A DNA stretch of 26,156 nucleotides from a virus. Location of the stretch: the IMG/VR virus record IMGVR_UViG_3300025137_000247, positions 1 through 26,156 of that record. One strand, given 5' to 3'. The notes under the pieces are model-generated. The model was not told the origin of the DNA. It made no database searches and saw only the letters and a list, made by a program, of their open reading frames with translations. The position numbers were made by a program, and so were the translations under genes. Positions 1 through 16,341 of the stretch are shown here, piece after piece; the stretch's first letter is position 1; each line of letters opens with the position of its first letter.

Positions 1-1
1 C

Positions 2-547
2 GTGGCCAACGTGCAGTGCAAGCGAAACCTGCGAGAAATTGGAGACAGTGGAAAAACGGAAACAGAGACACAAAGCGGAAGGCAAAAAAACGCCAGGACT
101 AATGAAACTTGGCACAACAGTCCAACTGACGGGGTGGCCAACAGCGACGTCAAGAGATTACAAAGACACGGGCAAAAATCTGAGCAACAGCAACACGCGC
201 AAGGACGGCAAATCACGTCTAAACACAGTGCCGAGAGTTGCGACACTGACGGGGTGGCCGACGGCAACAAGAAGCGACGGCACGAAAGCAGTCAATCGAA
301 TGAGAGACAACCACCAAAACGGACTGACAGCGTACGCAACATTGACGGGGCCGGCCCGACTAACGGCTACTGGCGAGCTGCAGATTGGATCTGGTGCAGA
401 GATGAAAAGTGGAGGCCAGTTAAACCCGGCCTTGAGCCGTTGGTTGATGGGTCTTCCGCCCGAATGGTGCGATTGCGCGGTTACGGCAACGCCATCGTCG
501 CGCCCCAGGCGCAAGCGTTCATAGAATCTTACCTGGAGACAGAATAA
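2..547 (+). CDS. DNA cytosine-5 methyltransferase, C-terminal part (5' end outside window)
   Basis: The frame is open to the left edge, so only the last ~181 residues are present. They end with [12 protein letters not shown] (about 117-128), [12 protein letters not shown] and then [13 protein letters not shown]. This is the layout of the C-terminus of phage C5-cytosine methyltransferases, with YGNAIVAPQ as conserved motif X. The catalytic PCQ, ENV and QxRxR motifs would lie upstream. Residues 1-115 are a hydrophilic linker with repeated GVANSD/GVADGN segments, as in other phage enzymes of this type. The TAA stop shares its last base with the ATG of the next gene (TAATG), so this frame is coupled to the operon. 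Such enzymes usually modify phage DNA against host restriction; the target sequence cannot be read from this part. An overlapping frame is also protein-like; see the next entry. Confidence 0.68.
3..524 (+). CDS. Overlapping WPT-repeat phage protein, C-terminal part (partial)
   Basis: This is the +1 frame relative to the methyltransferase and is also open to the left edge; the first internal ATG is at 39. It encodes WPT-type repeats ([13 protein letters not shown] and [10 protein letters not shown]), then [29 protein letters not shown] and a basic tail PRRKRS. Phage proteins annotated as methyltransferase-associated carry the same WPT repeats and an LNPxxSRWLMGxPxEW ending. The overlap has a simple cause: tGGCCAAC or tGGCCGAC reads as VAN/VAD in one frame and WPT in the other. 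It could be a real dual-coding gene, the product of programmed frameshifting of the methyltransferase, or a residual frame. It is reported because the protein signature is specific, but translation is unproven. Confidence 0.45.
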
Positions 548-14157: not shown

Positions 14158-16341
14158 TTACGGACTGTATCTTTGTGTAGGTATAATTCTTATATCTTCA
14201 CCTACGTCAAAATATTCACCAGCAGCAGTATCCACTGGCTGGTTTCCGTCTTTATATTTATCAGCTATCGCCCTGGCATCGGCTATCAAATTAGCTCTTT
14301 CCGTAGGACTTATATCACTTCCACGCTCTTTTACTATTCTCATTATTTTGTCGTGAGCTGCTTGGTCATCTATGTTCATATTTGGAGGCATCACTGGAAA
14401 TTCTGCCCCACTTTGTTCATCTAAAAATCTTGTAAGTTGATCTTGTGATAATGTTTCATCTGCTATGTTACCGGCTAAACCGCGCATTAACGGATCAAGT
14501 CCTTCTAATTCTGCATCAGCACCAGCCAATATTGCACCTATGGTATCCATATCAGCTCCTCTTCCAGCCAATGTTAGGCGCTCGTCTTCGCCTTCTCCTA
14601 TTCTTCCGGTCATTGCGGCTGTACGTAGCCTATTTTCAAGAGTATCAACTGGCAACACATCATCAGCTGCATCTTCTTCTATGAATTGTCCAGTAGCCCC
14701 TGCGCGTGTGGCAGCGCGTCCTAATGCAGCCGTATCCAATTCACTACCTAATGCTCTTGCTTGCTGAGTCTGTACTGGAGCCATGTTCGCTGCGCCTGTA
14801 TCAAACAGTCCGGTCTGACCAGCTTCAGCTATTCTGCGTTGTAGGTTTTCCGTGTCTAATCCGCTTTGTGTGGTTTCACCCGTTAGCGTCTTTGTACCAT
14901 CAATCTCACCATATAACTGCGACTCTAACTGCTGCCCAGCCAATGTTTTCTGATTGTCTAACTCTCCAAACAATTCTGCTTGTTGGCGTTGTGCCTGTAA
15001 GGTCTGCTGACCATCTTCGCCAAACTTTCCAGTTAATTCAGCGTCTGCACGTTCCTGACCCCTACTTAACGCATCGAGCTCTGCGCTCTGTCTTTTTGCA
15101 GCCATTGTTTTATCGCGTTCAAATATTCCAGTTTGACCGGCTCTGGCAATGTCACGATTTAACGCTTGCGTTAAGGTGTCCTGTTGAGATTGAGTTTCCT
15201 GTAGACCCATACCGCGCTGACCTAAATCAAAGCCTTGAGCATCACGTAAATCCTGTTGTCTGCGTTGTGCAGCTTGAGCTTTGAGTGCTAATCGGTTACG
15301 CTCATCGCCTTCACCCATTCTCGCTAAAGCGGCTGCGGTATCGCCACCGCCTCGCAACACGCCATACCGACCTAACTGCTCGACGAGTGCCTTACGCGCT
15401 TCGTTCTGGCGCATCTGCTGATCGGCTAACTGTGAGTCCATAATAGGATCATCTGCTCCACCCACTCTATTCATGTATTGCTGACGTAGTGCCTCTTCTA
15501 ACGTATCAGCCATTGGTGCAGCTTCTGATTCAACCACATTCTGAGCGTCTGCCATATCCGCACCAGCATCTGGATCGTAAGGCGGCGTTACCGGTGCGCC
15601 CGGCGTACTTGTACCGCTTGCATACGGATTTTCTACTTCTGGTATCACTGGTGCGCCCGGCGTACTTGTGCCGCTGGCATAAGGATTTTCTACTTCTGGT
15701 ATCACTGGCGCACCCGGAGTGCTTGTACCACTTGCGTAAGGGTTTTCAACTTCTGGTGTTACCGATGCACCTGGTGTACTCGTACCGCTTGCATATGGGT
15801 TTACAACTTCTGGTGGATCTGGTGTTACCGGTGCACCCGGTGTGCTTGTACCGCTTGCGTAAGGATCTACAACCTCTGGTGTCACCGGTGCGCCCGGTGT
15901 GCTTGTACCGCTTGCGTAAGGATCTACAGGCGGTTTATTATCTGGCGTTACTGGCGCACCTGGAGTACTCGTATTGCTTGCGTAAGGGTTTGCAATTGGT
16001 GGAGGTGGAGGTGGAGGTGGAGGTGGAGGTGCGCCCGGAGTACTTGTGCCACCTGCATATGGATTTTCTACTTCTGGTGTCACCGGTGCGCCCGGCGTAC
16101 TTGTGCCGCTGGCATAAGGGTTGTTTGCACCTAATCCACCGCCAGTAGCACCTTCAGTTATGGCAGCAACTAATGGGTCAGCCGTGTTTCCTCCAACGCC
16201 TGGTGCTTGATTTACGGCTTTATTACCGCCATATGTTTGTGGTGGTTTTGCCGGAGTGCTACCTCCACCAGCATACGGATCAAACGGCTGTTGCTTGTTC
16301 TTTTTTTTGCCTAACATCATCTCGTTATAGCTTACCGCCAT
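14158..16341 (-). CDS. Repeat-rich virion protein with NPYASGTSTPGAP repeats (727 aa)
   Basis: A 727-residue protein with two different repeat regions. Residues 74-256 hold nine copies of [N/D]PYASGTSTPGAP separated by short acidic or proline linkers; one linker gives a run of 11 prolines (105-115). A degenerate copy, DPYAGGGSTP, lies at 21-30. Residues about 404-598 hold seven degenerate units of 19-24 residues with consensus TGxF......TLAxQ....AEL. Between and after them are Gln/Arg-rich helices. The first part is probably an extended disordered stalk and the second a solenoid or coiled rod. Position after the tail nozzle gene suggests an ejection protein. Both ends overlap or abut neighbours (TAATG at the start). 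Confidence 0.72.
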   Translation of the reverse strand: MAVSYNEMMLGKKKNKQQPFDPYAGGGSTPAKPPQTYGGNKAVNQAPGVGGNTADPLVAAITEGATGGGLGANNPYASGTSTPGAPVTPEVENPYAGGTSTPGAPPPPPPPPPPPIANPYASNTSTPGAPVTPDNKPPVDPYASGTSTPGAPVTPEVVDPYASGTSTPGAPVTPDPPEVVNPYASGTSTPGASVTPEVENPYASGTSTPGAPVIPEVENPYASGTSTPGAPVIPEVENPYASGTSTPGAPVTPPYDPDAGADMADAQNVVESEAAPMADTLEEALRQQYMNRVGGADDPIMDSQLADQQMRQNEARKALVEQLGRYGVLRGGGDTAAALARMGEGDERNRLALKAQAAQRRQQDLRDAQGFDLGQRGMGLQETQSQQDTLTQALNRDIARAGQTGIFERDKTMAAKRQSAELDALSRGQERADAELTGKFGEDGQQTLQAQRQQAELFGELDNQKTLAGQQLESQLYGEIDGTKTLTGETTQSGLDTENLQRRIAEAGQTGLFDTGAANMAPVQTQQARALGSELDTAALGRAATRAGATGQFIEEDAADDVLPVDTLENRLRTAAMTGRIGEGEDERLTLAGRGADMDTIGAILAGADAELEGLDPLMRGLAGNIADETLSQDQLTRFLDEQSGAEFPVMPPNMNIDDQAAHDKIMRIVKERGSDISPTERANLIADARAIADKYKDGNQPVDTAAGEYFDVGEDIRIIPTQRYSP
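15574..16122 (-). repeat. Coding tandem repeats ([N/D]PYASGTSTPGAP, nine units) with a (GGAGGT)n tract
   Basis: Units of 57-66 bases are repeated nine times within the 727-residue virion gene. The plus strand shows a pure GGAGGT-type hexamer run near 15998-16031 that encodes the polyproline linker. Protein copies are nearly identical, but the DNA copies differ at many third codon positions; for example, copies 7 and 8 spell GAP as GGTGCGCCC or GGCGCACCC on the complementary reading. This indicates selection on the amino-acid repeat rather than very recent slippage. Confidence 0.9.

Follow-up and report, generated by a model that had tools for sequence, protein, structure and literature searches.

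A reading frame nested in phage C5-cytosine methyltransferase genes is under amino-acid constraint of its own

Two overlapping frames at the contig start and in related phages

The window, i.e., the whole stretch of DNA analyzed, was a viral contig from IMG/VR, 26,156 bases long, whose first base falls inside a gene. Genes for an integrase, an excisionase-like protein, a terminase, a portal and a major head protein were present in the contig, and its virus is probably a temperate tailed phage. Two genes that overlap on the same strand were represented at positions 1–547 by their 3′ ends, the contig start having truncated both, namely, frame 2 (gene A), which was open at 2–547 including the stop (181 aa), and frame 3 (gene B), which was open at 3–524 (173 aa); the remaining plus frame of this region contained 14 stops. 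Two overlapping protein-like frames had been reported here in the first-pass annotation, and this was borne out, as both were open from the first contig bases and had distinct PHROG matches: frame 2 matched phrog_363, a phage DNA methyltransferase family (E-value = 5 × 10−13), and frame 3 matched phrog_31772 (E-value = 9 × 10−30) and phrog_1008 (E-value = 3 × 10−16). The gene A part (2–547, plus strand) was also assigned, as had been proposed, to the C-terminus of a C5-cytosine methyltransferase from its tblastn matches to phage cytosine methylases and from its relatives; it covers the region between motifs VIII and X, followed by motif X itself (GNAxxPQ-like, 479–508, plus strand, located by sequence and alignment). 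The gene B part (3–524, plus strand) belongs to a nested +1-frame protein of the phrog_1008/phrog_31772 family that was open in nearly all relatives. It contained, on the basis of sequence and module clusters, a 40-aa module of the recurring type W[PT]TP..RDxKD.. (135–254, plus strand) and a 32-aa module (255–350, plus strand), and it carried a 16-aa terminal motif of the LNPxxxRWLMGxPxxW type (420–467, plus strand), which was near-invariant among B proteins according to the alignment and to hhalign with a second family. The linkage of the VAN/VAD and WPT repeats noted previously was also found, the same GGGTGGCCNAC bases reading as GVAN/GVAD in frame 2 and as GWPT in frame 3 (TGG at 135 and 255).

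When frame 2 of the window alone was shuffled synonymously, frame 3 acquired 3.2 stops on average and was open in 0.6% of shuffles (P = 0.006). Comparison of the window with its four closest relatives revealed more silent-in-B than silent-in-A changes per site in three cases. The first two thirds of the gene, on its 5′ side, are missing from the window, and the starts and the catalytic domain are visible in relatives only. Downstream of the methyltransferase, at 547–990 and 1207–1647, there were two similar proteins of approximately 147 aa, apparently paralogs with a MerR-like look, for which the PHROG search returned no matches. A structural-region protein at 14158–16341 (minus strand) contained a (N/D)PYASGTSTPGAPVTPE repeat in about nine copies, which keeps an antisense frame open, and a polyproline run.

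Scans of viral contigs returned at least 600 matching stretches each. The two translations were searched separately, and each matched approximately 200 phage records, with most records and positions shared between the two; intact homologs of both frames were found across relatives. In the viral contigs found with either frame, A was typically an ORF of 266–629 aa with a full catalytic domain (in frame A in L001–L003), and B was usually an ORF of 200–540 aa in the +1 frame relative to A, beginning just upstream of motif I and ending a few codons short of the stop of A. The overlap amounted to approximately 250–440 codons and covered nearly the whole host gene. The pair was carried by tailed dsDNA phages and by prophages from many bacterial phyla, including N15 (gp58), epsilon15, a Vequintavirus, Kagunavirus and Cyanophage Cy-LDV1. 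In the Kagunavirus phages K1ind2 and fTaEco03, the depositors had annotated both ORFs, with B as "Mte8-like" (ADA82427.1 and TE3_033, respectively). A very different methyltransferase family ("GGILGG...ENSP...AIGNGQVP"), found via two Planctomycetota genomes and hereafter termed the second family, also carried a nested B.

All 68 A homologs matched PF00145, and the A relatives carried motifs I (FAGxG), IV (PCQ), VI and VIII (QRxRxR), with motif VI reading EQV rather than ENV in the family of the window (family 1). A matched HhaI in the profile search (E-value = 5 × 10−18) and HaeIII/HhaI in the fold search; PDB 8yf3, a DNA cytosine C5-carboxymethyltransferase, also ranked among its best fold matches. 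The AlphaFold model of A had a confident catalytic domain (pLDDT 81) and low confidence between motifs VIII and X (pLDDT of approximately 50 at residues 170–200), and the PF00145 match of the modelled protein ended at profile position 160 of 324. Neither a structured target-recognition domain nor motif IX was found in the same chain by AlphaFold, by the PF00145 match or by constraint. All of the 111 B proteins scanned matched phrog_1008, which is labelled "DNA methyltransferase", and none of those scanned against Pfam gave a methyltransferase match; because B has no methyltransferase domain, the label of phrog_1008/phrog_31772 looks like a mis-transfer.

Among the loci examined, no stand-alone B, i.e., one without a methyltransferase gene, was found; the candidate L265 was rejected, as its surroundings showed nesting in a methyltransferase there too. 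Locus L146 was considered as an ancestral in-frame fusion of the catalytic domain and the LNP end in one frame and was likewise rejected, since this arrangement arises via an indel by which motif X is split off as well. Frame-swapping indels in the module or tail region, joining the N-terminal part of B to motif X of A or the catalytic part of A to the tail of B, were observed in L138, L146, L181, L169, L057/L059 and L249, and such loci were a small minority. In an E. coli prophage (L249), A was annotated as two incomplete pieces, and annotations of E. coli prophages give the L138-like gene as broken. Near the 3′ end of the pair, ORFs for HNH or endonuclease VII were inserted in phage phiKX2 (L256:2997–3515) and in Cy-LDV1 (L252:2932–3597).

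Stop codons, start signals and selection in the nested frame

Frame-B stops were counted between motifs I and X and compared with synonymous-codon shuffles preserving the A protein and its codon use. Family-1 loci were sampled by the catalytic N-terminus of the methyltransferase alone, with a query built from loci known to carry B. In the 140 family-1 loci with an intact A, 8 frame-B stops were observed against approximately 415 expected, and 133 loci were fully open, these loci being related so that the counts are not independent events; in the +2 frame, there were 1609 stops against 1428 expected, i.e., no depletion. Because the family-1 query came from B-carrying loci, the test was rerun on the second family, which was sampled blind, and a single frame-B stop was found in 75 viral loci against 358 expected (74 open). 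In the negative control, 128 stops were counted in 13 ordinary C5-methyltransferases drawn by PF00145 (128.6 expected); just one of them was open, and it belonged to the nested kind. Frame B was also open in loci of 46–55% GC. For single loci, the shuffle probability of an open frame B was as high as 0.28.

Start signals of B were identified in both families. In family 1, 193 of 199 loci had a frame-B ATG among the 25 codons preceding motif I (against 111 expected), the B start lying 9–23 codons upstream, and the best score for a Shine–Dalgarno sequence plus start was 4.09 compared with 1.42 under synonymous resampling. The commonest family-1 start was found where A reads E-D-V: the Asp codon was GAT in 149 of 184 cases (baseline 40%), and the Arg four codons before it was AGG in 31% (baseline 9%), giving AGGAG at a spacing of approximately 8 nt. 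In the second family, the starts of A and B were 4 nt apart, ATGAATGAG, with the ATG of B after that of A, and where the second codon of A encodes Asn, it was AAT in 38 of the 39 cases (baseline 34%), which places the ATG of B. On this codon evidence, B has a predicted ATG and Shine–Dalgarno sequence of its own, kept by biased codon choice in A, which favours separate initiation over frameshifting.

Constraint was evaluated by classing changes by their effect in each frame in 46 non-overlapping locus pairs, with neighbouring single genes as the baseline. In the neighbouring genes, the rates of change at sites silent in the shifted frame and in the real frame were 0.26 and 0.55, respectively. 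The order was reversed in the recognition region (from motif VIII to the last 60 codons), with 0.70 for sites silent in B and 0.32 for sites silent in A; here B was constrained (dNN/dNS = 0.39) and A was nearly free (dNN/dSN = 0.85). Both frames were constrained in the last 60 codons (0.45 and 0.40), and A dominated in the catalytic region (0.24). The constraint on B in the catalytic region was modest, the dNN/dNS of 0.53 (0.48–0.59) having an interval that overlaps that of the neighbouring genes (0.65; 0.43–0.83). In distant pairs, B-frame identity in this region was 0.305 compared with a synonymous null of 0.233, so that the excess was double the one in the +2 control, the second family contributing no catalytic-region pairs under the chosen cut-off. 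Thus, the nested frame B is under independent amino-acid constraint, which is strong in the module and C-terminal regions and modest in the catalytic region.

Taken together, these data argue, with a probability of roughly 0.87, for two complete same-strand genes that overlap almost end to end, A being the methyltransferase and B a separate nested protein; judging by sequence, two proteins are most likely made from one message. True dual coding was one of three explanations given in the first-pass annotation, and it is supported by the intact homologs of both frames in relatives, which is the opposite of the refuting outcome named in that annotation, by the depletion of stops in frame 3, by the lack of such depletion in the third frame and by the amino-acid constraint that frame 3 has of its own. 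Of the other two, a frameshift-expressed isoform would start on A and shift by +1, so that B is the C-terminal half of a product joining the catalytic domain to the B modules. The partition of constraint, with A constrained in the catalytic domain and motif X and B in the modules, is what such a fusion would give; however, a frameshift is not needed, as B has an internal start with a Shine–Dalgarno sequence kept by biased codons, and a shift downstream would not require frame B to be stop-free and conserved throughout the catalytic region, which makes this explanation improbable. Still less probable is an untranslated B, whose frame would be open owing to GC content and to the conservation of amino acids in A. 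Chance often leaves the +1 frame open in GC-rich genes, and the shuffle probability for single loci reaches 0.28, but the shuffles expect hundreds of stops where 8 and 1 were seen, neither ordinary C5-methyltransferases nor the +2 frame are depleted, and loci of 46–55% GC are open. An old frame conversion or a decaying gene, in which one frame would survive as a remnant of the other, is the least probable of all: frame swaps do occur in the loci listed above, including the gene annotated as broken in E. coli prophages, but true swaps are rare module-region indels, and outside these loci neither frame is broken and both are constrained across deep divergence, with which a conversion is at odds.

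The modular nested protein and its possible role

The B proteins consisted of a conserved N-terminal half, 0–7 modules beginning with W(P)TP (median length 38 aa) and an LNPxxxRWLMG end. The B proteins of the two families were homologous (hhalign E-value = 5.5 × 10−21 over 219 columns). Coarse clustering, which left many modules in no cluster and gives approximate figures, revealed 23 recurring module types, many of them at different array positions and in loci with catalytic identity down to 41%. Among the 217 pairs of loci whose catalytic domains were at least 88% identical, 198 differed in the B module array. HNH-like domains in frame with B, and not with A, were seen by eye in L006:2925–4271 and L058:2798–4429; they sit in the catalytic-region part, and A was open through the same DNA. 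One B of the scanned set matched endonuclease PHROGs.

Sequence and profile searches matched B to no Pfam, NCBIfam or PDB family. Its AlphaFold model was weak (pLDDT 65, pTM 0.28), with two better parts, the best being a helix plus hairpin at residues 70–113, and a fold search against PDB with this weak model gave no match. The LNPxxxRWLMGxPxxW end was also considered as motif IX (LTPREcARLqGFPdxF), which it resembles by eye; this likeness is no more than a lead, as a motif IX–X profile, a small one built from a handful of C5-methyltransferase segments, scored B no better than shuffled B.

Three features point to B as a DNA-recognition component: its modules sit at the target-recognition position between motifs VIII and X, the sequence of A is unconstrained at this position, and close relatives swap modules while the catalytic part stays the same. 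B thus shows modular exchange with an unchanged catalytic domain, as target-recognition regions do. According to the proposed mechanism, A in the ancestral frame would yield a C5-cytosine methyltransferase with motifs I–VIII, a low-constraint linker and motif X; B would be translated from its own ATG and Shine–Dalgarno sequence in the +1 frame as a separate protein of 200–540 aa; and B would work with A, conferring or modifying specificity in the way of the tandem recognition domains of Bacillus-phage enzymes. That B gives the methyltransferase its DNA specificity is a tentative proposal, somewhat short of even odds, and the counter-evidence is that the searches linked B by sequence neither to known recognition domains nor to motif IX. 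With similar reserve, widespread phage C5-methyltransferases may be a two-protein enzyme in one DNA stretch, with a catalytic A and a swappable multi-module recognition protein B.

A role for B as a methyltransferase regulator or in counter-defence is about as likely as one in specificity. B would then be real and separately translated and would act otherwise than as the recognition partner of A, e.g., as a regulator of the methyltransferase, a counter-defence protein or a protein of the toxin–antitoxin type. It is consistent with this possibility, again held with less than even confidence, that no relation of B to known target-recognition domains was detected, that a protein arisen de novo could serve any function and that the N-terminal half over the catalytic domain is conserved and includes the best-modelled part; on the other hand, the constraint on B is highest exactly where A lacks it, the swapping of modules resembles that of target-recognition domains, and B was always found with a methyltransferase gene among the loci examined.

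Significance and comparison with known systems

Annotation pipelines forbid long overlaps, and consequently, in hundreds to thousands of phages and prophages, one conserved protein of the two is absent from the annotation or wrongly labelled "DNA methyltransferase". The A/B pair is unusually large, old (common to two divergent methyltransferase families) and widespread, which makes it a strong natural test bed for dual-coding evolution. If B supplies specificity, cloning a single gene or predicting motifs from A alone would in principle give misleading results, and the array of modules would amount to a library of DNA-recognition units. If the two-protein enzyme is real, each recombination in the module region would exchange specificity and yet would have to keep two frames open.

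The "Mte8-like protein" of Kagunavirus and phrog_1008/phrog_31772 are B itself, named without the nesting being recognised as general; in PMC5582158, a "putative Mte8-like protein" is only listed among the genes differing between phages. No description of the A/B arrangement was found in the open-access literature on overlapping, nested or overprinted genes and phage methyltransferases. Overlapping genes are a known kind, and what is new is the length and spread of the A/B pair and the split of constraint between its frames.

Lambda Rz/Rz1 and the phiX174 pairs are overprinted same-strand phage gene pairs. Tymovirus p69/replicase is an overprinted pair in another virus (PMC8227390). The A/B pair is like all of these in that one gene is fully nested in a shifted frame with its own start and both frames are selected; it is unlike them in the extent of the overlap (approximately 250–440 codons), in its occurrence in many phyla and in two methyltransferase families, and in the modular nature of the nested frame.

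The C5-methyltransferases of the Bacillus phages SPR, phi3T and rho11 are multispecific and have tandem target-recognition domains between motifs VIII and IX. Such tandem domains of Bacillus-phage enzymes are mentioned in PMC8936443. The A/B pair shares with these enzymes a phage C5-methyltransferase and an array of modules of approximately 40 aa at the same gene position, whereas its modules are in the +1 frame and form a separate protein, with no sequence relation shown. M.AquI is a two-subunit C5-methyltransferase with a catalytic subunit and a recognition-domain subunit, whose genes are essentially consecutive. If B is the recognition component, the A/B pair has the same division of labour as M.AquI; it differs in the nesting of its genes and in the position of motif X, which the catalytic subunit retains.
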